Origin: Desulfopila aestuarii DSM 18488
GTDB taxonomy: Bacteria; Desulfobacterota; Desulfobulbia; Desulfobulbales; Desulfocapsaceae
NCBI GenBank assembly: GCA_945863875.1
Contig: CAMBBS010000001.1
Location: 186,001 to 250,000, forward strand
DNA length: 64,000 nt
Direction: 5' to 3'
In this document: piece after piece, positions 15,014 to 31,572 of the stretch
Position numbering within the stretch: the stretch's first letter is position 1
Layout of the letters: every line of letters starts with the position of its first letter
The notes under the pieces: generated by a model
Told to the model about the DNA's origin: nothing
Databases searched by the model: none
Seen by the model: only the letters and a program-made list of their open reading frames with translations
Position numbers and translations under genes: made by a program

Positions 15014-16564
15014 ATGAAGTTAAACGACCAACTCGACCATCTCAGGAAACTCAGGGCTGAGGCCCGACTGGGTGGTGGTCAGCAAAGAATAGATAAGCAG
15101 CATGAAAAAGGGGTTATGACCGCCAGGGAACGCATCGATCTTCTCCTGGACAAAGGATCGTTTGAAGAGTTCGACATGTTCAAGGCCCACCGATGCAGGG
15201 AATTCGGTATGGAAAAACAGGTCTTTCCCGGAGACGGCGTGGTAACGGGGCATGGTACGATAGATGGCCGTATCGTCTATGTCTTTGCACAGGATTTTAC
15301 CGTGCTGGGCGGTTCGCTCTCCGAGACATTTTCCGAAAAAATCTGCAAGGTCATGGATATGGCCATGAAAAATGGCGCGCCGGTTATTGGTCTGAACGAT
15401 TCCGGTGGCGCGCGCATCCAGGAAGGCATTGAGAGCCTGGCGGGATATACGGAAATCTTTCAGCGAAATGTCATGGCTTCCGGGGTGGTACCGCAACTTT
15501 CTGCGATATTCGGCCCTTGTGCCGGGGGAGCGGTCTATTCTCCAGCCTTGACCGACTTTATCGTCATGGTGCAAAACCAGTCCTACATGTTTCTCACCGG
15601 GCCAAAGGTTGTGAAGGCGGTGACCCATGAAGATGTCACCACCGAGGCCCTTGGTGGAGCGGCAATGCACGCCAGCAGAAGCGGCGTCTCCGATTATGCG
15701 GCAACGTCCGGTGCCGATGCCATTGACTATGTCAAAAAACTGCTGTCTTTTCTGCCGCAAAACAATATGGAAAGCCCGCCGGCCGTACCGTCGGAAGATC
15801 CGGGCAATCGTCCGTCGATTGAGCTCAACTCGATTCTGCCGGAAAACACCAATGCCGCGTATGACATGAAGGAAGTCATTCTACAGACTGTTGATAATCG
15901 CGATTTCCTAGAGGTCAAGGCCAGTTTTGCCCCGAACCTGATCGTCGGATTTGCCAGGTACAACGGCATGAGCGTCGGCATTGTCGCCAATCAACCGGCC
16001 CATCTGTCCGGGGTTCTGGATATCGATTCATCGGTAAAAGGCGCGCGGTTTGTCCGGTTTTGCGATTGTTTCAATATTCCTGTCGTCACCTTCGTCGATG
16101 TACCGGGGTTTATGCCGGGAACCGCCCAGGAATATGGCGGGGTGATCAGGAACGGGGCGAAGATTCTCTATGCCTATGCCGAAGCAACGATCCCCAAAGT
16201 AACGGTTATAACGAGAAAAGCATATGGCGGCGCCTATTGCGTCATGTCTTCCAAGCACCTGCGTGGCGATTTGAACTATGCCTGGCCGAGTGCGGAAATC
16301 GCGGTCATGGGCGCAAAGGGCGCGGTTGGCGTATTATACGGCAGAGAGGCAAAGAAAGCCGATAATCCTGCCGCTTACCTGGTGGAAAAGGAAAAAGAAT
16401 ATCAAGATTACGTCGCCAATCCCTATGTCGCCGCCCAGCGGGGGTATATTGATGATATTATAGAACCTTCTCTGACGAGAGGCAGAATTGTCAAGGCGCT
16501 TGAGCTGCTGCGGAATAAACGGGACACCAATCCTATGAAAAAACACGGCAACATACCCCTTTAA
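15014..16564 (+). CDS. mmdA: Methylmalonyl-CoA carboxyltransferase 12S subunit (MmdA/PccB family), copy 1
   Basis: Transfers the carboxyl group between methylmalonyl-CoA and biotin. The 516-residue protein has the two crotonase-like halves of the family: G-A-R-I-Q-E-G near 134, [11 protein letters not shown] near 167, and in the second half [10 protein letters not shown] with [10 protein letters not shown]. The C terminus K-K-H-G-N-I-P-L is typical. A good ribosome site (AAGGAGA) precedes ATG 15014. Downstream are two small genes and the 5S subunit with its own biotin domain, and no membrane beta subunit, so this copy most likely works in a soluble transcarboxylase (methylmalonyl-CoA + pyruvate to propionyl-CoA + oxaloacetate, or reverse). 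A second copy at 26783 belongs to the Na+ pump. Confidence 0.92.
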
Positions 16565-17258: not shown

Positions 17259-19214
17259 ATGAGTGATCAAGTAAAGATGACCCCATTGAATTATTCCGAG
17301 GATCGGCCAAAGGCTAAGAATCCTGTGAAAATAATGGATCTGTCCCTGCGTGATGGACATCAGTCTCTCTTTGCGACGCGTGGTCGTACGGAGGATATGA
17401 TACCGGTGGCGGAGCTGATGGATGAGGTCGGCTTCTGGGCAATTGAAACCTGGGGTGGTGCAACGTTTGATACCATGCACCGGTTCCTCAATGAAGACCC
17501 ATGGGAGCGGCTGCGCACCCTGAAAAGGTACATCAAAAAGACGCCTTTTTCTATGCTGCTGCGGGCACAGAACCTGGTCGGTTACCGCAACTACGCCGAT
17601 GATCTGGCCTATGCTTTTGTCGATCGTGCGGCGGCCAACGGCATGGATGTTTTCCGAACCTTTGATGCGCTGAATGACTATCGCAACTTTGAGACCGTTG
17701 TGAAAGGGATCAAAAAGGCCGGGAAGCATTTCCAGGGGTGTATCTGTTATACCCTGACCGAACCCCGTCTCGGCGGAGAAGTTTATAACCTCGACTACTA
17801 TACCGACAGGGCGAAAACCCTGGAGGATATGGGCGCGGATTCCGTCTGTGTAAAGGATATGGCCGGGTTGATGGCACCGTATGATGCCTATCCGCTGATC
17901 AAGGCCTTGAAAAAAGCGGTGCGGGTCCCCATTCACTTGCACAGCCACTTTACGTCCGGCATGTCGCCGATGACCCATCTGAAGGCGATTGAGGCGGGCG
18001 TGGATATTATCGACACCTGTATGACCCCGTATGCCTACAGAACGTCCCATGCCGCGGTCGAGCCGCTGGTAATGGCCCTGCTCGGCACCAACCGCGATAC
18101 CGGTTTTGATATTAAAAAGCTCGCGGTTATAAACGAGATTTTTGAAAGAGAGGTGATGCCGAAATATAAGCATCTGCTCGATGATTCAAAGGTCTCCATC
18201 ATTGATATCAATGTCCTGCTGCATCAGACCCCCGGCGGTATGCTGTCGAATCTGGTCAATCAGCTGCGGGAAATGGACGCCCTGGATAAAATCGGCGAGG
18301 TCTACAAGGAATTGCCGCGGGTGCGAAAAGACCTCGGACAGATTCCCCTCGTTACCCCAACCAGTCAGATTGTTGGCGTGCAGACGGTCAATAACGTGCT
18401 GCATGATACCCCGGACGAACGGTACAAGATGATTACCGGACAGGTGAAGGATCTCTGTTATGGCCTGTACGGCAAAACTGCGGTACCGATCAACGCCGAA
18501 CTGCAGAAAAAGGCCCTGAAGGGTTACCCCCGTGGCGAAGAACCGATCACCTGTCGGCCGGCGGAAGTGCTTGAACCGGAGCTGGAAAAGGCCAAAAGCG
18601 AAATCGGGGACCTGGCGGTTGACCTCGATGATCTCATCCTCTACGCGCAATTTCCTGTTACCGGGAAGAAGTTTCTCGAATGGAAATACGGCAAAGCCGA
18701 GCCACCGGCGAGCGTCAAACCGATCAGTCTTGAAGAGGTAAAGAAAAAAGACGAAATTATCAAGAAGGCCAAAGCCGGTAAACTTATTGAACCAAAACCG
18801 GATACTCCAGCGAAAACGGCGGCAGTGAGGACCTTCAACGTTTTTGTTGATAATGAATACTTCAATGTGGAGGTCGATGCTACCGGCGATGTGCAAGCCG
18901 TTCCGGCATCACGCCCCGCTGCCGCTGGCCCGGCTCCGGCGCAAACCGCAGTCGCTGCCCCTGCACAGGCAGCCGCGCCTCAACCGGTCGCCCCGGTCGA
19001 TGGCACGCTGCTTCTGGCACCGATGCCTGGTATGATCATTAAATACGAGAAAAAGGCCGGCGATGTCGTCAAGAAGGGGGATCCCCTTGTCGTTCTGGAA
19101 GCGATGAAAATGGAGAACGCCCTGGTCGCTCCCTGCGACGGAACTGTGCAAGGTATTAAATTTGCCAGTGGCGACAGTGTTGCCAAAGGCGCGGTACTCT
19201 GTATCATAAGCTGA
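17259..19214 (+). CDS. oadA: Transcarboxylase 5S / oxaloacetate decarboxylase alpha / pyruvate carboxylase subunit B with fused biotin domain
   Basis: Carries out the pyruvate/oxaloacetate half-reaction. The 651-residue protein has an HMGL-like TIM barrel (D-L-S-L-R-D-G-H-Q-S near 28; H-L-H-S-H-F-T-S-G-M with metal-binding histidines near 228; K-D-M-A-G carrying the carbamylated-lysine region), a conserved carboxylase domain, an Ala/Pro linker (about 548-580) and a C-terminal biotin-carrier domain with E-A-M-K-M, biotin on Lys617. GAGGAG precedes ATG 17259. With the 12S subunit upstream and no beta subunit in this operon, a Wood-Werkman transcarboxylase is the best reading; it could also pair with OadB encoded at 24748 as an oxaloacetate decarboxylase. 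Confidence 0.88.
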   Translation: MSDQVKMTPLNYSEDRPKAKNPVKIMDLSLRDGHQSLFATRGRTEDMIPVAELMDEVGFWAIETWGGATFDTMHRFLNEDPWERLRTLKRYIKKTPFSMLLRAQNLVGYRNYADDLAYAFVDRAAANGMDVFRTFDALNDYRNFETVVKGIKKAGKHFQGCICYTLTEPRLGGEVYNLDYYTDRAKTLEDMGADSVCVKDMAGLMAPYDAYPLIKALKKAVRVPIHLHSHFTSGMSPMTHLKAIEAGVDIIDTCMTPYAYRTSHAAVEPLVMALLGTNRDTGFDIKKLAVINEIFEREVMPKYKHLLDDSKVSIIDINVLLHQTPGGMLSNLVNQLREMDALDKIGEVYKELPRVRKDLGQIPLVTPTSQIVGVQTVNNVLHDTPDERYKMITGQVKDLCYGLYGKTAVPINAELQKKALKGYPRGEEPITCRPAEVLEPELEKAKSEIGDLAVDLDDLILYAQFPVTGKKFLEWKYGKAEPPASVKPISLEEVKKKDEIIKKAKAGKLIEPKPDTPAKTAAVRTFNVFVDNEYFNVEVDATGDVQAVPASRPAAAGPAPAQTAVAAPAQAAAPQPVAPVDGTLLLAPMPGMIIKYEKKAGDVVKKGDPLVVLEAMKMENALVAPCDGTVQGIKFASGDSVAKGAVLCIIS

Positions 19215-19913: not shown

Positions 19914-20900
19914 TTACAATCGTTTTTCCTGCAAAAAGGCCAGGAGCGCATCGGCCGCGGCGGTAGGGGAGGTGCGCTTCATTTCGACGTCCTTTCGCAA
20001 GGTGGGCATAGTGGCCTTTACCTGCGGGTCGTTGTAAAACCATTGGCGCAGCCCCTCCTCAAGGAGAAAAGACATCCAGTCGAGCGCCTGGTGCCTTCTC
20101 TTCTCATCCATCTCGCCACTCTCGGTCAGTTTCTGCCGGTGGTCCAGAATAGTTTCCCAGATTTTGTCGATACCGGTATGTTCGAGGGCGCTGCAGGTGA
20201 GAACCTGCGGACTCCAGTTGGGGCTGTTCGGCATAAGCATGTGCAGGGCGGTCTGGTACTCCTTGCAGGCAATCTGCGCCCGCAGCACATTGTCACCGTC
20301 CGCCTTGTTGATGACAATGGTATCGGCCACCTCGAGAACGCCTTTTTTGATGCCCTGCAGTTCATCACCTGCCCCGGCAATCATCAGCACCAGAAAAAAA
20401 TCCACCATCGAGGCCACGGTGGTCTCCGATTGACCGACGCCGACGGTTTCAATGATGACAACATCATAACCAGCAGCCTCGCAGGCGAGCATGGTTTCCC
20501 TGGTTTTTCTGCCGACACCGCCGAGTGTCCCGCTTGAGGGAGAAGGGCGGATAAAGGCATTCGCGTTCACGGCCAGTTTCTCCATACGCGTTTTGTCACC
20601 GAGGATGGAGCCGCCGCTGCGGGTACTGCTCGGATCGATGGCCAGCACTGCCACCCGGTGACCTTTTTCGGTGAGCATGTTGCCAAAACTCTCGATGTAG
20701 GTGCTTTTGCCGGCACCCGGCACACCGGTTATGCCGATCCGATATCCCTTGCCGGTGTAGGGAAGGAGTTTGTCGATAATTGTTCTGGCCAGCTCCTGGT
20801 GGGCGGGCAAGGTGCTTTCGATGAGGGTGATGGTTCTCGCGAGCATCAAACGATCCCGGCTGAGAACACCATCGATATATTCCTGGGGGGTTTTAAGCAT
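19914..20900 (-). CDS. meaB: Methylmalonyl-CoA mutase-associated GTPase MeaB (ArgK)
   Basis: G-protein chaperone that protects the B12-dependent mutase and gates cofactor loading. The 328-residue protein has P-loop G-V-P-G-A-G-K-S-T at 59-67, D-P-S-S-T-R-S-G-G-S-I-L-G-D-K-T-R-M, E-T-V-G-V-G-Q-S-E and the base motif N-K-A-D. I chose the ATG at 20900 because it gives the family's usual N terminus; the frame is open 56 codons further, almost to the mutase stop, but that stretch includes a perfect 9-bp hairpin (21022-21044) and does not look like protein. It follows the mutase gene on the same strand, the standard arrangement. Confidence 0.93.
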   Translation of the reverse strand: MLKTPQEYIDGVLSRDRLMLARTITLIESTLPAHQELARTIIDKLLPYTGKGYRIGITGVPGAGKSTYIESFGNMLTEKGHRVAVLAIDPSSTRSGGSILGDKTRMEKLAVNANAFIRPSPSSGTLGGVGRKTRETMLACEAAGYDVVIIETVGVGQSETTVASMVDFFLVLMIAGAGDELQGIKKGVLEVADTIVINKADGDNVLRAQIACKEYQTALHMLMPNSPNWSPQVLTCSALEHTGIDKIWETILDHRQKLTESGEMDEKRRHQALDWMSFLLEEGLRQWFYNDPQVKATMPTLRKDVEMKRTSPTAAADALLAFLQEKRL

Positions 20901-21021
20901 GGAAGAAGGCTTGAGTTGAAAATTTATCGGGAAATCGCCGTTGGAAAGTAAAACACAGGGGATCCAGCGATCAAGCGAGGGAGAATCGCCGGACCCCTTG
21001 TGGTGCTGCCGGATGGTACTG

Positions 21022-21070: not shown

Positions 21071-23212
21071 CTACTTGAGATATTTTTCCTCGAGAAGAGA
21101 AAGGGTTTTGTCGGCGGAGACGGGAATCGGTGTACCCGGTCCGAAGATGGCCTTGACGCCGGCTTTATAGAGAAAATCGTAGTCAGCAGGCGGGATGACT
21201 CCCCCGGCGACAACGATAATGTCCTGGCCGCCGATTTTCTTCAGTTCCTCGATCAGTGACGGAATAAGTGATTTATGTCCGGCGGCAAGGCTCGATGCCC
21301 CGACGACATGGACATCGTTTTCGATGGCCATTTTCGCGGCCTCTTCCGGGGTCTGGAACATCGGGCTGATATCGACATCAAAACCGAGATCGGCGTAGGC
21401 GCTGGCGATGACCTTGAAGCCGCGGTCATGGCCGTCCTGGCCCATTTTCGTCACGAGCAGACGAGGGCGTCGGCCTTGTTTTTCAAGGAAAACGTTGGTT
21501 CGTTCCTTGATGGCGTTGAAAACTGAATTGTCACTGTGAAATTCCGAGGAGTAGGCACCGGAGATGCAGCGGGTGGTGGCGACGAAACGGCCGAAAACCG
21601 CCTCCATGGCATCGGAAATTTCACCAACTGTCGCCCGGGCCCGAACGGCAGGCAGGGCCGCCTCGAGCAGATTGCCGTCGTTTTGCGCTGCTGCAGTGAG
21701 ATCGGCAAGTGCTTTGTCGACGGCAGCCTGATTACGGCTGGCCTTGATCTCTTTTAGGCGGGCTACCTGTTCGTCACGCACAGTGGCCGGTACTTCCCGT
21801 ACCTCAAAGTCGATTTTTTCATCGGTCAGCTTGTATTTGTTGACGCCGACAATGACGTCAAGACCCTGATCGATTCTCGCCTGCTTGCGGGCAGCGGATT
21901 CCTCGATGCGCATTTTCGGCATTCCGCTTTCGATGGCCTTGGCCATGCCGCCCAGTCCGGCAATCTCGTCGATGATTTTCTGTGCCTCATCAATAATACT
22001 GTTGGTAAGCGACTCGATGTAGTAAGAGCCGCCTAAGGGATCGACAACATGACAGACTTGCGATTCTTCCTGAATGATGATCTGGGTATTTCTGGCAATA
22101 CGCGCGGAAAAATCAGTGGGCAGGCCGATGGCCTCATCAAAGGAATTGGTGTGCAGGGACTGGGTGCCGCCAAGAACCGCGGACATCGCCTCCAGCGTCG
22201 TGCGGATGATGTTATTGTAGGGATCCTGTTCCGTGAGACTCCAGCCGGAAGTCTGGCAATGGGTCCGCAGCATGGAAGATTTCGCATTCTTTGGATTAAA
22301 CTCGCTCATCAGTCGATGCCAGAGGAATCTGGCCGCGCGCAGCATGGCGATGTCCATGAAGAAGTTCATGCCGATGCCGAAAAAGAAAGACAGCCTGGGC
22401 GCAAAGGTATCGACATCCATGCCGCTTTTCAGGGCTGCCCGCACATACTCAACGCCGTCGGCCAGGGTAAAGGCGGTCTGCAGGACGCTGTTGGCGCCGG
22501 CTTCCATCATATGATAGCCGCTGATGCTGATGGTGTTGTACTTCGGCATGGTCTTCGAGCAGAAGGCCATGATGTCGGAGATGATCCGCATGGATGGCCC
22601 CGGAGGATAGATATAGGTGTTTCGCGTCAGATATTCCTTGAGGATATCATTTTGGATGGTGCCGGACAGCTGGTCGTGGCTGACACCCTGTTCTTCTGCG
22701 GCAACGATATAGCCGGCGAGAATGGGAATAACCGCACCGTTCATCGTCATGGAGACAGACATCTGGTCGAGCGGGATGCCGTCAAAGAGGATTTTCATGT
22801 CTTCGACGGAATCAATGGCCACGCCGGCTTTGCCGATATCTCCGGCTACCCGGGGATGGTCCGAATCATAGCCCCGATGGGTGGCGAGGTCAAAGGCGAC
22901 GGATAATCCTTTCTGGCCGGCGGCAAGCGCCTTATGGTAAAAAGCGTTCGATTCCTTGGCGGTAGAAAAGCCGGCATACTGCCGGATCGTCCAGGGGCGC
23001 CCGGCGTACATGGTTGTCATGGGGCCGCGGGTGTAGGGGGCCATTCCCGGCATGGTGTTGAGCGCGTCCAGACCATCGAGGTCTTCTGCCGTATAGAGCG
23101 CCTTCACTTTTATACCTTCCGGGGTCATCCAGTCGAGGGTGTCCACGGACTTTCCCTTCATCTGTTTGGAGGCGAGTTCTGCCCATTTCGCTAATTTTGC
23201 ATTCTCTGCCAT
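21071..23212 (-). CDS. scpA: Methylmalonyl-CoA mutase, single-chain (adenosylcobalamin-dependent)
   Basis: Converts (R)-methylmalonyl-CoA to succinyl-CoA. At 713 residues it is the full-length catalytic chain: N-terminal TIM barrel with the substrate segment T-R-G-P-M-T-T-M-Y and [11 protein letters not shown], the [17 protein letters not shown] segment, and a C-terminal B12 domain with D-G-H-D-R-G (cobalt-ligand His595) and G-A-S-S-L-A-A-G-H. Sequence [11 protein letters not shown] near the middle is typical. AAAGGAGC precedes the ATG. It lies in a minus-strand operon TetR - epimerase - mutase - meaB. Confidence 0.96.
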
Positions 23213-23279: not shown

Positions 23280-23684
23280 CTAGGAACGTTCGCAAAGCTC
23301 AACCAGCACGCCACCTGTCGCTTTTGGGTGAAGGAATGCAATTTTGGCCCCCCCGGCACCGATTCGAGGTTGCTGATCTATCAATTGGATGCCCTTATCC
23401 TTCAACTCCTGCAGGGCTTCCTCAATATTGGCTACCCTGAAGGCCACGTGCTGGAAGCCGGTGCCTTTTTTTTCAATGAATTTGGCGACCGGGCCATCTG
23501 GCGCGGTGGATTCAAGCAGCTCGACCTCGCTTTCTCCAACGGGGAAAAAAGCGGTAGTCACTTTTTGTGTCTCCACCGTTTCCGCCCCTTCAAATTTGAG
23601 GCCAAGTACATCTGACCAGAAATTTTTTCCATCATCAATGCTGTTTACGGCTATTCCTAAGTGGTCAATTTTCAGTATTTTCAT
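23280..23684 (-). CDS. mce: Methylmalonyl-CoA epimerase
   Basis: Interconverts (S)- and (R)-methylmalonyl-CoA, linking the carboxyltransferases to the mutase. A 134-residue glyoxalase/VOC-fold protein with metal ligands at D-H-L-G-I-A-V (His near 8), G-F-Q-H-V-A-F-R-V (His near 83) and the C-terminal V-L-V-E-L-C-E (Glu). ATG 23684 has GGGAGG upstream; the frame extends further, but without a ribosome site and into non-protein-like sequence. It lies 67 bp upstream of the mutase gene and 73 bp after the TetR gene, in the same operon. Confidence 0.93.
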   Translation of the reverse strand: MKILKIDHLGIAVNSIDDGKNFWSDVLGLKFEGAETVETQKVTTAFFPVGESEVELLESTAPDGPVAKFIEKKGTGFQHVAFRVANIEEALQELKDKGIQLIDQQPRIGAGGAKIAFLHPKATGGVLVELCERS

Positions 23685-23757: not shown

Positions 23758-24381
23758 CTATTCTTTTTCAGGGTGAGACCCCTGAATCGATTGTTGAGGC
23801 CTCGCCAACATTCCCTGCCAGACCATCTCAAACATTATGTTCGCCTGTTCCGCGAGAGATTCATTTTTCCCGCGGAGTATCCACATAAAAAAACTGCGCT
23901 GCACAAAACCCATGAAGAAATCGAGCAGGGTGCCGGCCCGAACATGGGGATTGAGGATGCCTTCCTTTTGTCCCTGTCTGAGGACATCGATCATCAGGGT
24001 CATCATTCTGGGTTGGTCAAATGTTTCGTCCGCCATCCACGTCTTCATCGGCAGGGTCATGAAAACTATCCTGCCAAGCCCCTCGTGACGCTCGTAGTAG
24101 TCGAGCTGCAACCAGAAAACCTTGCGCAATTTTTCTTTGAGATTCTCTATTCCCTGCAGATGATCGACGATACGGTCCGTCAATTTTCCCATCCATATGT
24201 CGACGAAAGCAAATACCAGCCGTTCTTTGCTGCCGTAATGCTTGTAGATGGTCGTAAAGCTGACTCCGGCTTTGTTGGCAATGTCACGAATGGAGGCCCG
24301 ATGGAAGTCAGAGCTGGAAAAGACCTCCAGAACGGCCTTTTCGAGTCGCCGGTGTATGTCGCTGTTTAATTCATCTGACAT
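23758..24381 (-). CDS. TetR/AcrR-family regulator 1 (propionate operon)
   Basis: A 207-residue regulator with an N-terminal TetR helix-turn-helix (A-S-I-R-D-I-A-N-K-A-G-V-S-F-T-T-I-Y-K-H-Y-G-S-K-E). It is a clear paralogue of the TetR protein at 28410: the recognition helix is identical and most of the ligand-binding domain matches (for example L-K-E-K-L-R-K-V-F-W-L and D-Y-Y-E-R-H-E). It is the first gene of the operon with epimerase, mutase and MeaB, and a GTAACAATGTTAC-like palindrome lies about 185 bp upstream, so autoregulation is likely. The ligand may be a CoA ester such as propionyl-CoA; that is inference. Confidence 0.88.
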   Translation of the reverse strand: MSDELNSDIHRRLEKAVLEVFSSSDFHRASIRDIANKAGVSFTTIYKHYGSKERLVFAFVDIWMGKLTDRIVDHLQGIENLKEKLRKVFWLQLDYYERHEGLGRIVFMTLPMKTWMADETFDQPRMMTLMIDVLRQGQKEGILNPHVRAGTLLDFFMGFVQRSFFMWILRGKNESLAEQANIMFEMVWQGMLARPQQSIQGSHPEKE

Positions 24382-24747
24382 ATTGGTTGTTTAGTGGTAG
24401 TTGAAAAACCTTGTTCTTGCTGTGGGAAAAAGTCCCGGGATTGTTGCCAACCAGAAGCGGTCTTTTCGTGCGCTGAAGTAGCATCGTTATTGTTGCTGTA
24501 AAAAGTTAATTTACTGAATTGCCGCAAAAAAATGGAGCGTGTTTTTTTCAAATACTTTTTGTGGATAACAATGTTACACTTACTTGTAATGTATTGCTGA
24601 AAACTTTACAAGTAAAAAGCTGTGCCTTGAGGATGCAAATTTTTATATACTGGAAGAGGGGAAAAACCCCCAGGCCAGTGACCCCGGCCATTCCCGCAAT
24701 GGGACAAGGCGTCCGGCGGTCATTGCCGGACGTTCCTCCCCCAGGCC
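24382..24747. other. Intergenic region between oadB 3' end and TetR1 promoter side
   Basis: 366 bp without a recognisable gene. From the right it holds the oadB 3' end with a GTCCGGC/GCCGGAC hairpin at 24711-24731 (no T-run), and near 24565 the candidate TetR operator. The AT-rich part next to TetR1 is the likely promoter. Confidence 0.5.
24565..24577. promoter_or_regulatory. Candidate TetR operator upstream of TetR1
   Basis: ATAACAATGTTAC differs by one base from the perfect palindrome GTAAC-AAT-GTTAC at the second TetR gene. It lies about 185 bp upstream of the TetR1 start, within the AT-rich promoter region. Confidence 0.55.
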
Positions 24748-25911
24748 CTAATTGCCGAAAAGAGACAGGAGCACCCCCGCGGAAACCGCCGAGCCGATGA
24801 CCCCGGCAACGTTTGGTCCCATGGCGTGCATGAGCAGAAAATTGCCCGGATCTTCTTTCTGGCCAACCACCTGAGATACCCTGGCCGCCATCGGTACCGC
24901 CGAAACACCGGCCGAACCGATCAGCGGGTTAATGCTGACGTTCATCACCTTGTTCATCAGCTTGGCAAGAAGTACCCCGGAAGCGGTGCCTATGGCAAAG
25001 GCGGTGACGCCCAGGGTGAGGATGGCCAGGGTTTCAATCTTCAGAAACTGTTCGGCAGTGGCCGTTGCCCCGACGGTCACCCCGAGAAAGATGGTGATGC
25101 TATTGATAAGGGCATTTTTCGAGGTATCTTCAAGTCTGCCGGTAACACCGCATTCTCTGAACAGGTTGCCGAGCATGAGCATGCCGATGAGGGTCGCCGC
25201 CGGTGGCACCATCAAGGAGACGATAATGGTGACAACTATGGGAAAAAGTATTTTTTCTCTTTTCGTCACGTCCCGCAACTGGGTCATTCGAATCATTCTC
25301 TCTTTTTTGCTGGTGAGCAGGCGCATAATCGGCGGTTGGATTATCGGTACCAGGGCCATGTACGAGTAGGCGGCAATGGCAATCGGGCCAAGGAGATGCG
25401 GCGCCAGTTTAGAAGAAAGAAAGATAGCGGTTGGGCCATCCGCGCCGCCGATAATGCCGATGGAGGCGGCTTCCTGGGCAGTAAACAGCCCGGAGGCTAT
25501 CGCTCCTATAAAGGTAATAAAGATGCCGAATTGGGCGGCGGCCCCGAGCAGCAGCGATTTTGGGTTGGCGATGAGTGGTCCGAAGTCGGTCATCGCGCCG
25601 ACGCCCATAAAAATAAGGGGAGGGAATATTCCCAGATGATCCCCCTGAAAGAGATAGTACAGCAGGCCACCCGGTTGAATGGTATGGATAACGTTTTCCT
25701 TTATCTCCATTATCGGCTCGGCCATTAAATCGGCAAAGGGGAGGTTGGTCAGCAGAACGCCGAAGGCGATCGGCACCAGCAGCAGTGGTTCGAATTTTTT
25801 GACAATGGCCAGATAAAGTAAAAGGCAGGCGATGCCGAGCATGGCCATTGCCCCTGCGGTCAGGCCGTAGAATCCTGTACTTCTGGCGAATTCAAGAAGT
25901 GCTTGCAGCAT
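24748..25911 (-). CDS. oadB: Na+-translocating decarboxylase beta subunit (OadB/MmdB)
   Basis: Integral membrane subunit that decarboxylates carboxybiotin and exports Na+. The 387-residue protein is hydrophobic throughout and has the conserved functional regions: [10 protein letters not shown] (essential Asp in the first re-entrant segment), [12 protein letters not shown], and [16 protein letters not shown] near the C terminus. It is the last gene of the minus-strand operon mmdA-mmdD-mmdC-oadB, so methylmalonyl-CoA is the likely substrate; the 5S protein encoded at 17259 could give it an additional oxaloacetate decarboxylase role. Confidence 0.94.
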
Positions 25912-25929
25912 GATAGATGTCCCCCTTTG

Positions 25930-26331
25930 TTATGACAGGATAACCAGGATATCGCCGGCGTTGACCGCTACGCCCTTGGTCACGTTCAGTTCCTGGACGA
26001 CGCCGTCGGCCGGGGCCAAGAGATCATTTTCCATCTTCATTGCTTCAAGGACCAAAAGCACCTGGCCCTTCTTGACACTCTCGCCGAGGTTGACCAGCAC
26101 CTGCAGGACGGTTCCCGGCATGGGCGCAATGACATTGCCTGGAGCGGCAGCCCCGTCTGTGCTGGCTGCGGCGGGTTTTGGCTGCGGCTGTGCTGCCGGT
26201 TTTGGCAAAACGTGTGCCGGCGCCGCCGGGGCAGCTTGGGCCACTTCCGGCCGAGAGATTGCCTCTTCGGCCAGTTCTTCGATTCCTACCCTGTATTCGC
26301 TCCCGTTGACAACAACTCTGAACATTTTCAT
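25930..26331 (-). CDS. mmdC: Biotin carboxyl carrier subunit of methylmalonyl-CoA decarboxylase (MmdC)
   Basis: A 133-residue biotin protein that shuttles the carboxyl group from MmdA to the beta subunit. It begins with a short conserved domain (M-K-M-F-R-V-V-V-N-G), has an Ala/Pro-rich flexible linker (about 30-65), and ends in a biotinyl domain with E-A-M-K-M-E-N-D, biotin on Lys99. Length and linker match MmdC of Veillonella and Propionigenium. It lies 18 bp upstream of oadB in the same operon. Confidence 0.93.
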   Translation of the reverse strand: MKMFRVVVNGSEYRVGIEELAEEAISRPEVAQAAPAAPAHVLPKPAAQPQPKPAAASTDGAAAPGNVIAPMPGTVLQVLVNLGESVKKGQVLLVLEAMKMENDLLAPADGVVQELNVTKGVAVNAGDILVILS

Positions 26332-26350
26332 CTATGCGACCTCCGTTAGT

Positions 26351-26767
26351 TTATAATCTGTTGTTCATCTGCTCAATAATTCCTGCCCGATTCCAGGCGG
26401 GGGAGCGATCGTCAAGTTTTTCGATATTTTTGATAACTATACTATCCACCGACGTTTTCAGTTTCATGGCAATGACAGCGGCGATGACCGCCACAAGTTC
26501 GTTGTCATCCCGGTGGCTTTCCTCTGTGCCGGCCGTTGGCTGTTGTGCTCTCGGGCCGATTGGCATGGGCTCATCTGGCGCCGTCTTTTTCCTGTTGAGA
26601 ATCTTGTCCATCCAGGAAATGATGAACTGCAGGATGATAAGCGCAGCGAAAGTAATGCCCATCCCCAGTATGGTGGTGATAAGCCCGGCGGCAAGTTTGT
26701 CCGAAATCGATAAGGACTGCATGACCTCTGGATCCGCAAAACGAGCCAGCAGTTCGGTTACAATCAT
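26351..26767 (-). CDS. mmdD: OadG-type delta/gamma subunit (MmdD)
   Basis: Small assembly subunit that holds the decarboxylase complex together. The 138-residue protein has one N-terminal membrane helix (L-I-T-T-I-L-G-M-G-I-T-F-A-A-L-I-I-L), a charged linker, and a C-terminal domain with V-A-V-I-A-A-V-I-A-M and W-N-R-A-G-I-I-E-Q-M-N-N-R, the part that contacts the carboxyltransferase in this family. The 68-residue protein encoded at 17011 resembles this C-terminal part. It lies between mmdA and mmdC. Confidence 0.85.
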   Translation of the reverse strand: MIVTELLARFADPEVMQSLSISDKLAAGLITTILGMGITFAALIILQFIISWMDKILNRKKTAPDEPMPIGPRAQQPTAGTEESHRDDNELVAVIAAVIAMKLKTSVDSIVIKNIEKLDDRSPAWNRAGIIEQMNNRL

Positions 26768-26782
26768 GTTTTTCTCCTCCTG

Positions 26783-28330
26783 TTAGAGTGGGATGTTGCC
26801 GTGCTTTTTGGCCGGACGTTTTTCCCGTTTACCTTCAAGCATATTGAAGGTGTCGATAATTCTCTGGCGGGAAGTACTTGGTTCGATAACATCATCAACA
26901 AAACCCCGTTCCGCCGCTTTGTAGGGGGTGGCGAATTCGGCCGCATACTCCTCGAGTATTTTCTGTTTGGTCGCCACCTTGTCTTCAGCGTTGGCAATGT
27001 CGTTTTTAAAAATGATGTTTACCGCCCCCTCTGAGCCCATAACCGCAACTTCGGCGGACGGCCAGGCGAAGACCATGTCCGCGCCAAGGGATTTGGAGCA
27101 CATGGCGACATAGGCGCCGCCATAGGCCTTGCGGGTAATAAGGGTCACCTTGGGCACCGTTGCCTCGCTGTAGGCGTAGAGAATTTTTGCCCCGTGCCGG
27201 ATGATTCCCCCGTATTCCTGGTTTGTACCGGGGAGGAATCCCGGGACGTCGACGAAGGTCAGCAAGGGAATGTTGAACGCGTCGCAGGTTCTGATGAATC
27301 TGGAGGCCTTGTCACCCGCGTTCATATCCAGGCAGCCGGCCATGACCTTTGGCTGGTTAGCGACTATGCCGACCGATTTGCCGTTGATCCTGGCAAAGCC
27401 GGTTATCAGGTTGGTGGCAAAATAGGTCTGGTATTGCATGAAATCCCCATCGTCGACAATAAGATGAATGATATCGAGAATATCGTATGGTTTGTTCGGG
27501 TTGTCCGGAACCAGGTCATTGAGTTCGCTGATGTGTCTGTTGATATCGCTGCGCAGGGGGCGGGTGGGGCTTTTCTCCATACTGTTTGATGGGAGATATT
27601 GGATCAATCTTCTGATATCCGCGAGGCATTGTTGCTCGGAATCGGCGATGAAATGAACATTGCCGCTGACACTGTTGTGCGTCATCGCCCCCCCGAGTTC
27701 CTCCGCGGATACTATTTCCCCGGTAACTGTTTTTATGACCTGGGGGCCGGTGATGAACATCTGGGAAGTTTTGTCGACCATGAAAATGAAATCGGTAAGG
27801 GCCGGCGAATAGACCGCCCCGCCGGCACACGGTCCCATAACCGCGGATATCTGCGGAATGACGCCGGAGTAAATGGAATTTCTGTAAAAAATATCGCCGT
27901 AGCCGGACAGGGCATCGACCGCTTCCTGGATTCTGGCCCCTCCGGAATCGTTCAGGCCGACAATAGGCGCGCCGACCTTGGCGGCACTGTCCATGGCCTT
28001 GACTATTTTTCTCGCGTGCATTTCCCCCAGGGCGCCGCCTGTTATGGTGAAATCCTGGGAAAAGGCAAAGACCACCCGGCCCTCGACTTGACCGTATCCG
28101 GTGACGACCGATTCGCCCTCAAAATCGAGCTTATCCATGCCGAATCGGGTGCATCTGTTTTTAACGAAGGCATCTATCTCGATGAAGGTGCCTTCATCAA
28201 AAAGGTGGAGGAGCCGCTCTCTTGCGGTCATTTTGCCGCTGGCATGCTGTTTTTTTATCCGCGCCTCCCCTCCCCCCAAGGCTATTTTTTCTTTTTTGGT
28301 GTGCAGGAGTGTTCTTTTTTCCAAGGACAT
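26783..28330 (-). CDS. mmdA: Methylmalonyl-CoA decarboxylase alpha subunit (carboxyltransferase), copy 2
   Basis: A 515-residue carboxyltransferase of the MmdA/PccB family, clearly homologous along its full length to the copy at 15014. Shared signatures: G-G-A-R-I-Q-E near the middle of the first half, [28 protein letters not shown], and the C-terminal [13 protein letters not shown] precedes ATG 28330. Its operon partners (delta, biotin carrier, beta) make it the catalytic subunit of the Na+-pumping methylmalonyl-CoA decarboxylase, which would save the energy of decarboxylation as a sodium gradient. Confidence 0.93.
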   Translation of the reverse strand: MSLEKRTLLHTKKEKIALGGGEARIKKQHASGKMTARERLLHLFDEGTFIEIDAFVKNRCTRFGMDKLDFEGESVVTGYGQVEGRVVFAFSQDFTITGGALGEMHARKIVKAMDSAAKVGAPIVGLNDSGGARIQEAVDALSGYGDIFYRNSIYSGVIPQISAVMGPCAGGAVYSPALTDFIFMVDKTSQMFITGPQVIKTVTGEIVSAEELGGAMTHNSVSGNVHFIADSEQQCLADIRRLIQYLPSNSMEKSPTRPLRSDINRHISELNDLVPDNPNKPYDILDIIHLIVDDGDFMQYQTYFATNLITGFARINGKSVGIVANQPKVMAGCLDMNAGDKASRFIRTCDAFNIPLLTFVDVPGFLPGTNQEYGGIIRHGAKILYAYSEATVPKVTLITRKAYGGAYVAMCSKSLGADMVFAWPSAEVAVMGSEGAVNIIFKNDIANAEDKVATKQKILEEYAAEFATPYKAAERGFVDDVIEPSTSRQRIIDTFNMLEGKREKRPAKKHGNIPL

Positions 28331-28409
28331 ATTCAGTGCTCCTTTTTCTAGGGTTGTCTGTTTTTCTTGTCGGTCGGTTTGTCGTTATCGGGGCAGGGCA
28401 ATACGCGTT

Positions 28410-29045
28410 TTATGCTTGTTCCTGTTGCTGTGGATCCTTTGCGCTGATGTAGCGGATGATATCCGGGTTAACCATACCCTGCCAGACCATTTCGAAGAGG
28501 GTGTTTGCTTCTTCGACAAGGCTGCCCTGTTTGCCCCGTATTATCCACATGAAAAATGATCGTTGAATGAATCCGAGCATAAAATCGAGAAGAGATCCGG
28601 CCCTGACGTTCGGGTTGATAACACCCTGCTGCTGGCCCTTCTTCAGTACATCAATAATCAGGCTTACTCTCCTTTTCTGATCAAAGGATTTATCTGTCAT
28701 CCACGTCTGCATGGGGAGGGTCATGAAGAGAATGCGGCCAAGTTCTTCATGCCGTTCATAGTAATCAAGGTGCAGCCAGAACACTTTTCTGAGCTTTTCC
28801 TTGAGGTCTTCAATACCTTTGAGATGATCCGCTATACGATCGGTCAGCTGGCTCATCCAGATATTGACAAAAGCAAAAAGCAGGTGCTCCTTGCTTCCGT
28901 AATGTTTGTAAATAGTGGTGAAGCTTACGCCGGCCTTTTCGGCAATGACGCGTATACTGGCCTTATGGAAATCGGCGGTGGAAAAAATTTCCAGCACCGC
29001 TTTTTCCAGTCTTTCCTGTACCTCTGGGTTGAGTTCATCTAACAT
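28410..29045 (-). CDS. TetR/AcrR-family regulator 2 (decarboxylase operon)
   Basis: A 211-residue paralogue of the TetR protein at 23758, with the same helix-turn-helix (recognition helix V-S-F-T-T-I-Y-K-H-Y-G-S-K-E) and closely similar ligand domain. It is first in the operon with mmdA, mmdD, mmdC and oadB. Its start codon lies inside a copy of the GTAACAATGTTA element, and a perfect palindrome lies about 210 bp upstream, between it and the divergent acuI. Autoregulation and cross-regulation with the first TetR protein are therefore likely. The duplication probably preceded the split of the propionate genes into two operons. Confidence 0.88.
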   Translation of the reverse strand: MLDELNPEVQERLEKAVLEIFSTADFHKASIRVIAEKAGVSFTTIYKHYGSKEHLLFAFVNIWMSQLTDRIADHLKGIEDLKEKLRKVFWLHLDYYERHEELGRILFMTLPMQTWMTDKSFDQKRRVSLIIDVLKKGQQQGVINPNVRAGSLLDFMLGFIQRSFFMWIIRGKQGSLVEEANTLFEMVWQGMVNPDIIRYISAKDPQQQEQA

Positions 29046-29051
29046 TGTTAC
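29039..29051 (-). promoter_or_regulatory. Candidate TetR operator overlapping the TetR2 start codon
   Basis: On the minus strand the bases read GTAACAATGTTAG, with the ATG of the TetR2 gene in the centre. The arm match to the perfect palindrome at 29254 is 12 of 13. Confidence 0.5.
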
Positions 29052-29253
29052 TTTTTGTTGTTTCCCTAAGAATAACGGTTATTGAATTATATATGATAAG
29101 TTATTTAAAAAAGTGAAAAAACAAAGAAAAATTCATGGAGAGGTCTTTCTTTTTGATCAAGGTGATATGGTTTTCTCAGAAAATGTTTTTTTTTATAACC
29201 GTTTAAAAATATTGCTTATAAAAATAAATTACTCCTTTTGTGCTCCTTCTCGA

Positions 29254-29266
29254 GTAACAATGTTAC
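29254..29266. promoter_or_regulatory. Perfect TetR-like palindrome GTAAC-AAT-GTTAC
   Basis: A 13-bp palindrome with 5-bp arms, midway between the divergent TetR2 and acuI genes. The same core occurs at four further places, all in front of propionate genes. Confidence 0.65.
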
Positions 29267-29331
29267 GCTTCCATTTAATGTAAATGCAATTTGTTTGTCA
29301 AGATAAAATAAGAGACGAAGCATCACTGCTT

Positions 29332-29556: not shown

Positions 29557-30555
29557 ATGGTCCACAACACATATCGGGCTATGGTGGTTGAAGAAATTGG
29601 CGACAAGCGGTTCTCCCGTTCAATCACCGAAAAATCGATAGATCAGTTGCCGGACGGCGAGGTTCTCATCAAGGTCAGCTGGTCCTCCCTCAATTATAAA
29701 GACGCCTTGTCGGCGAGTGGCAACCACGGCGTGACCAGGAAATATCCGCATACCCCCGGCATCGATGCCTCTGGAGTGGTCGCAGAGAGCCGCAGTGACG
29801 CCTTTCACCAGGGCGATGCGGTTATTGTCACCAGCTATGATCTGGGGATGAATACTTCCGGCGGGTTTGGCCAGTATATCAGGGTCCCGGCCGCCTGGGT
29901 GGTTCCTTTGCCCGCCGGTCTTGATCTCCGGGAGGCCATGGTTTTCGGTACCGCGGGTTTTACCGCCGGTCTGTCGGTCATGGCTCTTTCTCACGCTGTT
30001 CCCCCCGACAGGGGCGATATCCTGGTGACCGGGGCAACCGGCGGTGTCGGCAGCCTGTCTGTCGCTCTTTTGGCGAAGCTTGGCTATGCGGTGACCGCGG
30101 TCAGCGGTAAACCAGCAGCGGAGCAGTTTCTCAAGGGCCTTGGCGCCCGGAGGATCCTCCCGCGGGCTGAGGCGATGACCGGCCACGAAAGGCCCCTCTT
30201 GAAAACCGTTTGGGCGGGGGTGATCGATACCGTCGGGGGAGAAATTTTAGCATCGGCCATTAAATCCACGGACCTGCGAGGGGTTGTTACCTGTTGTGGC
30301 AATGTTGCCTCACCGGATCTGCCGTTGACGGTTTTTCCCTTTATTCTTCGTGGCGTTTGCCTGGTGGGCATCGACTCCCAGAATTGTCCTATGGCCAAGA
30401 GACGGAAGGTGTGGCAGCACCTGGCCACCGACTGGAAACCCGCCCAGTTAAACGATATTTGCCGTGAGGTCACGCTGGATCAGCTGGATGAACACATTGA
30501 CCTGATACTCCACGGCGGCCAGACCGGCAGGGTTATTGTAAAAATGGACTCCTAG
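29557..30555 (+). CDS. acuI: Acrylyl-CoA reductase AcuI/YhdH-type oxidoreductase
   Basis: Medium-chain dehydrogenase/reductase of the YhdH/AcuI group, which reduces acrylyl-CoA to propionyl-CoA with NADPH. The 332-residue protein has the N-terminal catalytic domain typical of the group (N-Y-K-D-A-L-S-A-S-G, P-G-I-D-A-S-G-V-V) and a Rossmann domain with V-T-G-A-T-G-G-V-G-S. The zinc-ligand pattern of alcohol dehydrogenases is absent. The strong site GGAGGGG precedes the ATG. In this place it would feed acrylate or 3-hydroxypropionate-derived acrylyl-CoA into propionyl-CoA, or detoxify acrylyl-CoA. It is the first gene of a probable operon with the deacetylase and CBS protein. Confidence 0.85.
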   Translation: MVHNTYRAMVVEEIGDKRFSRSITEKSIDQLPDGEVLIKVSWSSLNYKDALSASGNHGVTRKYPHTPGIDASGVVAESRSDAFHQGDAVIVTSYDLGMNTSGGFGQYIRVPAAWVVPLPAGLDLREAMVFGTAGFTAGLSVMALSHAVPPDRGDILVTGATGGVGSLSVALLAKLGYAVTAVSGKPAAEQFLKGLGARRILPRAEAMTGHERPLLKTVWAGVIDTVGGEILASAIKSTDLRGVVTCCGNVASPDLPLTVFPFILRGVCLVGIDSQNCPMAKRRKVWQHLATDWKPAQLNDICREVTLDQLDEHIDLILHGGQTGRVIVKMDS

Positions 30556-30618
30556 CAGTTGGGTGAGACGACACGCTCACAGGTGTCAAAAGGAAAAACT
30601 GAAAAAACAGGAAACGTT

Positions 30619-31572
30619 ATGAAAAGAACTGGTTTTGTGTATGATGATAGATATCTCCTGCACGATACAGGGGGCTATCATCCTGAATCGCCTGAACGTT
30701 TAAAAGCTATTCACCAGAGACTCTCCGCGTCGGGTGTGCTTGAAAAACTCACCCTGATAGAGGCCGACAGAGCCAATCAGCGATGGATAGAGACAGTCCA
30801 TAATATTCACTATATCATGCGTTTTGATGAGGCCTGTATCTCCGGTTTGAGTGAATTCGAACATCCTGATAACGCCATTTGCCGGGAAACCTGCGACATC
30901 GCCTTTCTGGCTGTCGGGGGGGTGCTGAAAGCCATTGACCTGATCATGAAAGGCGAGATCGATAATGCCTTTTGCGCAGTCCGTCCTCCCGGTCACCATG
31001 CGGAGGTTGATAAGCCCATGGGGTTCTGTTATTTCAACAACGTGGCGATTGCGGCGAGGTATGTACAGAAGCAATACGGTATAGAGCGAGTGGCTATTAT
31101 CGATTTCGATGTCCACCATGGCAACGGTACGCAGCATATATTCGATCGGGATGCCAGCGTCTTCTATTATTCCATCCACGAACATCCCTCTTTTGCCTAT
31201 CCGGGAACCGGCAGAGAGTTCGAGGTAGGCATCGGTGAGGGCAATGGCTATACCGTTAATTCTCCGGTACTGCCGGGCAGGGGTGATGACGAGTACCGAC
31301 GGCTGATTATGCAGGACCTTGTTCCGGCAGTTAAAAAATTCAAACCCGAATTTATTATCCTGTCCGCCGGCTTCGACGCCCACGAAAGTGATCTGATGTC
31401 CGGCACCAGCCTGTCCACCGATGGATACGATTTTGTTTCTGAAGTAATCATGAATCTGGTGAATCGATTTACCGGCGGCCGGGTTGTGTCCGTTCTCGAA
31501 GGCGGTTATAATCTCGATGTCTTGCCCATTTTGGTTGAAAATCATATCAAGATGCTGGCGGCAATCAAGTAA
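30619..31572 (+). CDS. acuC: AcuC-like class II histone-deacetylase-family protein
   Basis: Zinc-dependent deacetylase of 317 residues. The catalytic set is complete: H126-H127 (P-G-H-H-A-E), zinc ligands D164, H166 (D-F-D-V-H-H-G-N-G) and D253 (G-F-D-A-H), and the G-G-Y tyrosine at 297. In Bacillus the related AcuC removes acetyl groups from acetyl-CoA synthetase. Here the next gene encodes an AcuB-like protein, and the window contains two acyl-CoA ligases with the acylatable lysine, so they are the probable substrates. ATG 30619 follows AGGAAA; the frame is open further upstream, but without a site. Confidence 0.85.
   Translation: MKRTGFVYDDRYLLHDTGGYHPESPERLKAIHQRLSASGVLEKLTLIEADRANQRWIETVHNIHYIMRFDEACISGLSEFEHPDNAICRETCDIAFLAVGGVLKAIDLIMKGEIDNAFCAVRPPGHHAEVDKPMGFCYFNNVAIAARYVQKQYGIERVAIIDFDVHHGNGTQHIFDRDASVFYYSIHEHPSFAYPGTGREFEVGIGEGNGYTVNSPVLPGRGDDEYRRLIMQDLVPAVKKFKPEFIILSAGFDAHESDLMSGTSLSTDGYDFVSEVIMNLVNRFTGGRVVSVLEGGYNLDVLPILVENHIKMLAAIK

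Follow-up and report, generated by a model that had tools for sequence, protein, structure and literature searches.

A duplicated TetR-type regulator and evenly paired operators suggest a propionate regulon in Desulfopila aestuarii and related sulfate reducers

The window analyzed here is a stretch of 64,000 nt of Desulfopila aestuarii DSM 18488 (GCA_945863875.1, contig CAMBBS010000001.1, positions 186,001–250,000, forward strand), and the whole genome of this strain (4,685,841 bases; 4.69 Mb) was also scanned. The plus strand carries prpE (10630–12525) of the propionate/acetate-CoA ligase family (NCBIfam PRK10524, 777 bits, and TIGR02316, 715 bits, both below their cut-offs of 955 and 827), two genes that we take to be sucC (12629–13786; a neighbor retained in relatives) and sucD (14081–14950), encoding the succinyl-CoA synthetase beta and alpha subunits, mmdA1 (15014–16564) encoding a methylmalonyl-CoA decarboxylase alpha type carboxyltransferase (TIGR01117, 800 bits, below the cut-off of 999), and a gene for an oadA/pyruvate carboxylase subunit B-like protein with a biotin domain (17259–19214; PRK09282, 703 bits, cut-off 402). 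The initial annotation described two TetR genes, each heading a minus-strand operon, and the gene order agrees with this. TetR2 (28410–29045) is followed by mmdA2 (26783–28330; methylmalonyl-CoA decarboxylase alpha type; TIGR01117, 921 bits, below the cut-off of 999), genes presumed to encode an oadG-like small membrane subunit (26351–26767) and a biotin carrier protein (25930–26331), and oadB (24748–25911; sodium-pump decarboxylase beta subunit; TIGR01109, 507 bits, cut-off 191). TetR1 (23758–24381) is followed by mce (23280–23681; methylmalonyl-CoA epimerase; TIGR03081, 158 bits, cut-off 115), mcm (21071–23212; methylmalonyl-CoA mutase; PRK09426, 1231 bits, cut-off 876), and, ending the run, a gene that we assume to encode a meaB-type G protein (19914–20906).

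Both TetR proteins belong to the TetR family, their TetR_N helix-turn-helix domains exceeding the Pfam threshold of 24 bits (TetR1, 41.8 bits, placed also by the tree; TetR2, 39.3 bits). TetR_C_4, a YsiA-type ligand domain, was found in TetR2 (26.4 bits, cut-off 21) and was not listed for TetR1 at E ≤ 0.001. The two proteins are 73% identical and, as had been proposed, have the same recognition helix, the helix-turn-helix segment AGVSFTTIYKHYGSKE being identical. They are the only close TetR pair in the genome (next own-genome TetR match, E = 1e-8). The predicted model of TetR2 (mean pLDDT 87.7) is all-helical; judged by title, the PDB entries that it matches best are TetR-type regulators, with the top fold matches being FadR (YsiA) of Bacillus subtilis and Bacillus halodurans (PDB 3whb, 3whc, and 5gp9; TM 0.78 and 0.86 for 3whb). 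Bacillus FadR (18–22% identity) was also among the best PDB sequence matches, while the NCBIfam FadR profile of Bacillus (NF053878) gave 54 and 65 bits for the two TetRs, below its cut-off of 200.

All five operator copies reported in the initial annotation were recovered. The perfect 13-mer lies at 29254–29266 (GTAACAATGTTAC; minus strand, GTAACATTGTTAC in gene direction) and forms TetR2 operator 1; 215 bp from it, TetR2 operator 2 (GTAACAATGTTAG; 29039–29051, minus strand; motif match) covers the start codon and supplies its ATG. The one-change copy at 24565–24577 (ATAACAATGTTAC; minus strand, GTAACATTGTTAT in gene direction) is TetR1 operator 1; the start-codon operator (operator 2) present in other TetR1 copies is absent from TetR1 of the window. 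Before prpE, the exact 11-mer GTAACAATGTT occurs at both 10310 and 10528, within distal operator A (GTAACAATGTTCT; 10310–10322, plus strand), which has one GTAAC half and one AGAAC half, and proximal operator B (GTAACAATGTTTG; 10528–10540, plus strand), 218 bp from operator A. Operator halves are GTAAC or AGAAC, giving the general form (GT/AG)AAC-AWT-GTT(AC/CT), and comparison with relatives shows that the mixed halves at 10310 are a normal variant of the operator rather than the result of decay. In 15 of 15 prpE loci (>83% identity, window included; ≤3 changes), operators A and B were present at −308 to −322 and −101 to −104 from the prpE start, respectively.

A search of the window with ≤2 mismatches gave nine strand-rows at six places, whereas shuffled sequence gave 0.74 on average and never as many as nine in 100 trials. 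Of the six places, the one beyond the five operator copies (19590) falls within a reading frame that presumably encodes a gamma-carbonic anhydrase, and a 10-mer form also matched 32210 inside another reading frame; both were rejected as operators for this location. It had been suggested that frequent random occurrence of the 13-mer in the genome would speak against a regulon. In the whole genome, the 13-mer with ≤1 mismatch occurred at five places, three of them in the window (six strand-rows vs two in the reversed control), and the exact 11-mer at six places, four of them in the window (reversed control, 0). The sites are thus rare in this genome, contrary to that objection. The three off-site places of these scans were within other reading frames (two) or just 5′ of a gene (one). 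The gene just 3′ of one off-site place reads like a substrate-binding protein. A relaxed palindrome gave 12 strand-rows in this genome vs five in the control. Raw genome-wide counts of the degenerate form (≤1 mismatch) in 19 genomes were no higher than those of the reversed control; enrichment of the motif by raw counts was therefore rejected, and only the exact and paired forms stand out.

The predicted TetR2 promoter (TTGACA-17-TTAAAT; 29273–29301, minus strand; −10 by eye) ends 6 bp before operator 1, and all 10 TetR2 upstream regions in the alignment contain TTGACA. The predicted TetR1 promoter (TTGTAA-17-TACAAG; 24583–24611, minus strand; by eye) has no TTGA and ends 5 bp before operator 1; in an alignment of 18 TetR1 upstream regions, it coincides with their −35-like box. 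A −35-like TTGA box preceded operator 1 by 27–37 bp in 39 of the 43 TetR genes having this operator (37 at 27–32 bp). Under the ≤2-mismatch rule, operator 1 was not found in 24 of 67 TetR genes, at least two of which carry the mixed-half form, and a site with ≤2 changes lay at the ATG in 25 of 67. The main operator is directly after the predicted −10, at about +1, the placement that a blocking repressor would need. Both prpE operators of the window lie upstream of a conserved promoter without overlap. This predicted promoter (TTGAAC-17-TATAAA, a consensus match; 10550–10578, plus strand) is directly 3′ of operator B, which ends nine bases before the −35 and has its center near −51. Since the operators are upstream of the promoter and not on it, control at prpE may be by repression or by activation. 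Three other readings of this region found no support: a sigma-54 site (the window has one near-match, read by eye, whose spacing differs by a single base) and a promoter directly after operator A (TTGACA-17-TATTAA by eye in the window) were not kept in the alignment, and service of the prpE operators to the divergent sensor-kinase gene is countered by the presence of that neighbor in 5 of 15 loci. The sigma-54-type regulator pair adjoining prpE (6725–10194) was likewise beside prpE in 5 of 15 loci, window included, these loci holding ≤1.5 kb of upstream sequence.

Relatives carry the operator at the same three promoters, and the regulator gene co-occurs with it, as expected of a single regulon. 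With TetR+ defined as a match at E ≤ 1e-50, the core AACAWTGTT was found before prpE in 37 of 39 TetR+ and 5 of 41 TetR− genomes, and the stricter GTAAC form in 30 of 39 and 4 of 41, respectively (Fisher p = 5e-10), whereas 119 permuted palindromes occurred before prpE in a mean of 0.9 of 39 genomes (maximum 9). These 80 upstream regions, four of them shorter than 450 bp (240–428), come from 115 genomes with a prpE match; outside this test were 12 TetR+ genomes (nine of genus g4 and G181, with TetR itself before prpE; G140 and G150, partial matches) and 23 TetR− genomes, including L221 and L255 (regions too short). The exact 13-mer was found in 23 of 53 TetR+ vs 15 of 204 TetR− genomes (p = 3e-9; reversed control, 3 of 53 vs 12 of 204). 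The five TetR− genomes having the core (G111, G139, G155, G166, and G172) all fall in genera with TetR+ members except G172, the sole member of its genus in the set. Their assemblies consist of 230–810 contigs, and three are 63–81% complete; missed TetR genes are therefore likely. Loss of the regulon in the clade with TetR behind oadA was considered and rejected: the prpE site there is AGAACAWTGTTCT in seven genomes, a form outside the ≤2-mismatch limit to GTAAC...GTTAC. Paired operators also precede mmdA1, within the TetR-bearing gene run, in G137, G175, and G176 of this clade.

The operator varies with the recognition helix. The helix SFATIYK was paired with the operator GTAAT in seven of eight genes, and GTAAT occurred in 0 of 35 SF(T/S)TIYK genes having a site. 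In the tree of TetR homologs (one truncated TetR of 67 omitted), the TetR2 copies grouped in a single clade, the branch to which is long (1.04 changes per column). Of 17 mmdA2 genes without a TetR gene before them, 15 still had a site with ≤2 changes. The operator therefore probably predates the duplication, in which a copy of the regulator seems to have been placed at a promoter where its operator was probably present beforehand.

The core also occurs in pairs. At 202–222 bp, 61 pairs were found in 40 of 93 genomes, 58 of them at pathway genes; the remaining three (G135:C86, G145:C34, and G172:C553) had no assigned pathway gene, and the genes at the latter two are, by our assignment, unrelated to the pathway. 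Core and spacing together thus select pathway genes almost alone across whole genomes. The pathway pairs were 202–219 bp apart (mean 213.8, sd 4.4), a mean and sd bounded by the search range of 202–222 bp. The control distance of 232–252 bp gave one strand-row vs 98 at 202–222 bp in the 93 genomes. When wide zones were used (about 155–355 bp allowed), 33 prpE pairs lay 193–228 bp apart (sd 6.2). The sequence between paired prpE operators was near the shuffled level (0.39 vs 0.36) and hence not conserved, while the distance was. The second operator is upstream of the promoter-side operator at sdhC, mmdA1, and prpE and downstream at TetR genes and most mmdA2 genes. Unconserved sequence between the operators and a second operator on either side are as DNA looping predicts, and the pairs about 214 bp apart suggest looping of the DNA by the repressor. 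With regard to steps of the helical repeat, nine of 12 spacing outliers lay 9–13 bp from their class median, but several periods fit, 11 and 12 better than 10.5, and the genomes are related. To our knowledge, fixed pair spacing is unusual for a TetR-family system, and a non-exhaustive literature search by title and abstract found no natural TetR-family loop of such kind.

Core and spacing rule point to candidate new members, namely sdhCAB in this genome and, among relatives, mmdA1 and a single PFOR gene. The main operator before sdhCAB, which lies elsewhere in the genome, is 5–6 bp after the predicted −10; among sdhC genes (84 places found), the core was absent from 25 of 30 upstream regions examined. 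The proposal of one propionate regulon with two duplicated repressors is supported by conservation, co-occurrence, and helix covariation and modified as follows: the regulon is probably wider than first read, its sites are often paired, and the prpE operators lie off the promoter.

On the basis of the sites, their conservation and spacing, the co-occurrence, the tree, and the predicted fold, we infer a small methylmalonyl-CoA (propionate) regulon under a TetR/FadR(YsiA)-like repressor with two paralogs in this strain, at a probability of about 80%; a shared switch read by a duplicated repressor is most likely. TetR1 and TetR2 dimers would bind the general operator form. At TetR2–mmdA2, TetR1–mce–mcm–meaB, and sdhCAB, where the main operator is 5–6 bp after the predicted −10 and near a presumed +1, a bound dimer would block RNA polymerase, each TetR also limiting its own gene. 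The dimers would probably be released by one of the pathway's coenzyme-A thioesters, with propionyl-CoA and methylmalonyl-CoA as the likeliest candidates. At doubled operators, two dimers most likely hold each other, a DNA loop being the simplest form; at prpE, co-repression via the loop would be the first guess and activation the second. We see about even odds for the fuller proposal that a TetR-family repressor runs the whole catabolic pathway by looping, with dimers bridging operators some 20 helical turns apart and the two paralogs, perhaps as mixed dimers or bridges, reading the same pairs.

The paralogs may instead share the operator and differ in ligand or strength, one serving propionyl-CoA and the other another acyl-CoA or the fermentative direction, a division of work that we place somewhat short of an even chance. 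The long branch of the TetR2 clade, the TetR_C_4 cut-off passed by TetR2 only, and ligand domains that differ beside the same helix-turn-helix segment are consistent with it, whereas conservation of the ligand half is good, many of its columns showing no variation among 22 homologs that represent TetR1 and TetR2 alike. For prpE, a less likely alternative is that bound TetR activates, operator B just upstream of the −35 helping RNA polymerase, and represses at the other promoters. TTGAA(C/G)-17-TATA follows operator B in 15 of 15 loci, the operator found in the AGAAC clade precedes a similar promoter at a still greater distance (by our count on the alignment, near −119), and the TetR-type activator FasR is a distant NCBIfam match, below cut-off. 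Against activation, the A–B spacing equals that at repressor-type promoters, the near-consensus promoter boxes have no obvious need for help, and where TetR itself precedes prpE (Desulfocapsa-type loci, L119, L144, and L152), the TTGA box is at repressor-type distance from the operator in 12 of 12 cases.

Co-occurrence of sites and TetR across the order, their company at three loci (before mce, mmdA2, and prpE), and the variation of the operator with the recognition helix make it improbable that the sites serve a different DNA-binding protein, with the TetR genes as mere passengers of the cluster. An action of operators 1 and 2 in RNA, the 5′ leader copy pairing with the start-codon copy and hiding the ATG, is very improbable. 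At TetR2, 12 of 13 bases could pair between the two copies, and the ATG lies in the second, but at sdhC, mmdA1, and prpE the second copy is upstream of the promoter-side copy and would not be transcribed from that promoter. Operator 1 also stands alone in some TetR genes, the two operators have the same orientation in several relatives so that the center would mismatch, and an Rfam scan of 8000–32000 gave 0 families at cut-off. Chance or leftover sequence without function is hardly tenable: core copies in two reading frames of the window and the degenerate form, genome-wide no commoner than its control, would fit it, but it is contradicted by the shuffles, permuted motifs, reversed patterns, the other distance, and the TetR-lacking genomes.

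The preferred reading, a shared switch under duplicated repressors, resembles known systems in part. Bacillus FadR, likewise of the TetR type, regulates fatty acid metabolism, and one of its PDB entries holds stearoyl-CoA; it governs fatty acid breakdown, whereas the genes here handle propionate, and the operator here is unlike its site. PrpR, the enteric sigma-54 activator that controls prp genes of the methylcitrate route in response to the propionate pathway, is of a different protein family from the TetR pair. The looping repressors LacI, GalR, and AraC, which use operator pairs that flank the promoter at a fixed spacing (araO2–araI, 210 bp), are also of other families than TetR. PccD of the actinomycete Saccharopolyspora erythraea is a TetR repressor of the propionyl-CoA carboxylase locus with methylmalonic acid as a possible ligand (PMC10933834); its reported site, t/aTGACGg/cTGt/cTGt/a, is unlike the operator here, and the parts of that report consulted mention no paralog pair or paired operators. 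Comparative genomics of Proteobacteria described the TetR regulons PsrA, FadP, and LiuQ, which govern the use of fatty acids or branched-chain amino acids (PMC5343134); neither "propionate" nor "methylmalonyl" appears in that text, whose table of 33 factors was consulted in part. We found no description of propionate switching in sulfate reducers of this family in the open-licence literature, and no relevant literature on the operator motif letters by title or abstract.

Taken together, the sequence comparisons suggest a duplicated TetR propionate regulon with evenly paired operators in this sulfate-reducer family. The candidate members sdhCAB, for the step from succinate to fumarate, and PFOR (pyruvate:ferredoxin oxidoreductase), found in one relative, would extend the regulon farther down the path that leads from propionate to acetyl-CoA. 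With the operator, the regulator, and the targets defined, the system can be tested directly, and the fixed spacing would offer a clean test of looping.

TetR1, which precedes mce-mcm-meaB, and TetR2, which precedes mmdA2-oadG-carrier-oadB, are 73% identical over 192 residues. Their helix-turn-helix segments are identical, in agreement with the shared recognition helix described in the initial annotation. No other TetRs of this genome are so close to each other, the next match being at E = 1e-8. The five operator-like sites of that annotation (10310, 10528, 24565, 29039, and 29254) were all found exactly at these positions. With up to two changes, the 13-mer gave nine strand-rows at six places in the window, compared with a shuffled mean of 0.74. 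The genome-wide scan that had been proposed as a check (4,685,841 bases) gave five places with up to one change, three of them in the window. The exact 11-mer occurred at six places genome-wide, four in the window, and its reversed control at none. Off-window copies of the 13-mer or 11-mer lie within other reading frames or, once, just 5′ of a gene that presumably encodes a substrate-binding protein. A relaxed palindrome gave 12 strand-rows in this genome versus 5 in the control; outside the window it marked a pair of sites on contig C32, spaced 217 bp, an intragenic site on C8, and one on C76 that lies between reading frames.

NCBIfam assigned a prpE-type ligase, two mmdA-type carboxyltransferases, oadA/pyruvate carboxylase B, the sodium pump subunit oadB, methylmalonyl-CoA mutase, an epimerase, and an acrylyl-CoA reductase family protein to the cluster, with prpE and both mmdA scoring below their curated cut-offs. 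We take the remaining genes to be sucCD, meaB, a biotin carrier gene, and oadG; together, all these genes form the methylmalonyl-CoA pathway that links propionate with succinate. The acrylyl-CoA reductase family gene and what we take to be an acuC-like gene (29557-31572) are divergent from TetR2. Divergent to prpE (6725-10194) are genes for a sensor kinase with AtoS-like scores and a sigma-54-type response regulator with AtoC-like scores, both below the cut-offs; the kinase was found beside prpE in 5 of 15 loci.

Scanning named genomes for TetR2 yielded 19 loci. Most carry the label Desulfobulbaceae or Desulforhopalus/Desulfopila/Desulfocapsa, and Desulfopila sp. IMCC35006 and Desulforhopalus singaporensis are among them. 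In these loci the motif lies mostly 171-223 bp 5′ of TetR starts, over the start codon, and before mmdA2. Acrylyl-CoA reductase family and acuC-like genes are near the cluster in many of them. A TetR relative at E ≤ 1e-50 was present in 53 of the 257 genomes of the order (TetR+), all except one in the family Desulfocapsaceae. The exact 13-mer GTAACAWTGTTAC occurred in 23/53 TetR+ and 15/204 other genomes (Fisher p = 3e-9, related genomes not being independent), and its reversed control in 3/53 and 12/204. The single TetR+ genome outside the family, the Desulfobulbus propionicus MAG DOLJORAL78, carries a TetR2-type gene (L025:10001-10609; also L096) with changed helix residues (KNFNSKE), and neither an operator nor pathway genes were found within the stretch seen; this gene is probably a transferred or relic copy. 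In another genome (G169, locus L097), TetR2 is followed 404 bp on by TetR1, and the decarboxylase genes that separate them elsewhere are absent.

The distal (A, 10310) and proximal (B, 10528) predicted operators of prpE were present in all 15 prpE loci that were more than 83% identical, the window included, at −308 to −322 and −101 to −104. Three changes from GTAACAWTGTTAC were seen in the second copy of locus L062 and the first copies of L064 and L066, and fewer elsewhere. The promoter TTGAA(C/G)-17-TATA was likewise conserved in 15/15 and lies on the other side of the operators than at the TetR genes; in the window, operator B ends nine bases before the −35 element and operator A lies 218 bp further up. 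Control of prpE may therefore be either negative or positive. We compared 80 upstream regions of prpE of up to 450 bp (39 TetR+, 41 from genomes without a TetR relative, TetR−). Allowing two changes at most, the GTAAC form was found in 30/39 TetR+ versus 4/41 TetR− regions, while each of 119 permuted palindromes occurred in at most 9/39 (mean 0.9). Because seven of the nine TetR+ genomes lacking this form carry AGAACAWTGTTCT at −217 to −224 of prpE, and the 9-base core AACAWTGTT occurs in 37/39 TetR+ versus 5/41 TetR− regions, an operator half can be written as GTAAC or AGAAC. Site 10310 combines one half of each kind. In the window, the operators before prpE might be remnants of an arrangement in which a TetR gene, since lost, stood directly before prpE.

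At the TetR genes, TTGACA was common to all ten aligned TetR2 upstream regions and CTTGAAA or a near form to 18 aligned TetR1 upstream regions, with the operator directly 3′ of the −10 position in both. Of the 43 TetR genes having the promoter-side operator, 39 show a TTGA box at a distance of 27-37 bp 5′ of it (27-32 bp in 37); TetR1 of the window, with TTGTAA, is among the other four. Judged by this position, the promoter-side operator lies where a repressor would block.

In 33 genomes, the spacing of the two prpE sites ranged from 193 to 228 bp (mean 214.6, SD 6.2). For two reference intervals, the SD was 64 (oadB stop codon to promoter-side operator, 19 cases) and 39 (TetR stop codon to following gene, 48 cases). 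The sequence between the two prpE sites had a median identity of 0.39 versus 0.36 when shuffled. Operator pairs were 202-217 bp apart at TetR2 (n = 7) and 180-201 bp at TetR1 (n = 12), with two further TetR1 pairs at 81-82 bp and two, spaced 214 and 217 bp, in which an operator has mixed halves. The C32 pair (217 bp) precedes sdhC-sdhA-sdhB, with a TTGATA box 28 bp before its promoter-side operator. The pair is retained, with spacings of 218 and 219 bp, in the two sdhC orthologs of 95% identity, and the core was absent from 25 of the 30 sdhC upstream regions examined.

A family-wide search for core pairs at 202-222 bp gave 98 strand-rows versus 8 for the reversed control; at 232-252 bp there was one (control, 6). 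The 202-222 bp search thus yielded 61 pairs. They come from 40 of the 93 genomes searched (35/52 TetR+, 5/41 TetR−) and belong to prpE (31), TetR2 (8), mmdA2 (7), mmdA1 (4), sdhC (3), TetR1 (2), a TetR gene before prpE (2), and a pyruvate:ferredoxin oxidoreductase (PFOR) gene (1), with no gene assigned for 3. The PFOR operators are 217 bp apart (L346:4434-4651, genome G112). Relative to the operator behind the TTGA box, the second one is downstream at the TetR genes and in six of seven mmdA2 pairs (the seventh has no box), and upstream at sdhC and mmdA1; the PFOR pair has a box at both operators. A fixed distance with free side and free sequence is the trace that a protein bridge between the operators would be expected to leave, other causes being possible. 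A DNA loop formed in this way is the strongest of the proposals made here.

In a midpoint-rooted tree, the TetR2 copies grouped into a single clade (11 rows, 100/100) next to those of TetR1, and the TetRs adjoining prpE fell on other branches. Of 17 mmdA2 genes not preceded by a TetR, 15 retained a site that differs at no more than two positions. Because of the TetR2 clade and these TetR-less sites, the operator most likely predates the TetR duplication, and one TetR could serve several promoters. An extra TetR copy with like operators stands directly 5′ of prpE at L119:1650-2279, L144:3918-4547, and L152:7415-8014. The Desulfocapsa-type loci (L036, L037, L121, L122, and L154-L158) have a single TetR directly 5′ of prpE and the operator GTAATATTGTTAC or near forms, mostly immediately 3′ of a TTGAC-type box. 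The operator reads GTAAT in 7/8 genes with an SFATIYK helix compared with 0/35 SF(T/S)TIYK genes having a site; these eight genes are related and therefore represent a small number of events. Within their clade, L154 has T in the helix and the standard operator. Recognition helix and operator thus covary, and the Desulfocapsa-type operator would represent a specificity change along with the helix.

An AlphaFold2 model of TetR2 (22 homologs, mean pLDDT 87.7) matched Bacillus FadR structures best, one entry with stearoyl-CoA, and these were also among the top matches by sequence; the TetR proteins did not reach the NCBIfam FadR cut-off. The regulator is of a known kind, the TetR family with a FadR-like fold. 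Its ligand is likely an acyl-CoA, gene context alone indicating which one.

By title and abstract in mostly open literature, searches for this system and for the motif letters gave no description of the regulon, which may exist elsewhere, and searches for TetR with looping gave no natural TetR loop of the paired-operator kind. The propionate regulon of duplicated TetR repressors proposed in the initial annotation is supported, with binding predicted, and is widened by the sdhC, mmdA1, and PFOR pairs. The propionate regulon with its evenly paired operators is a new form built around a known kind of regulator.
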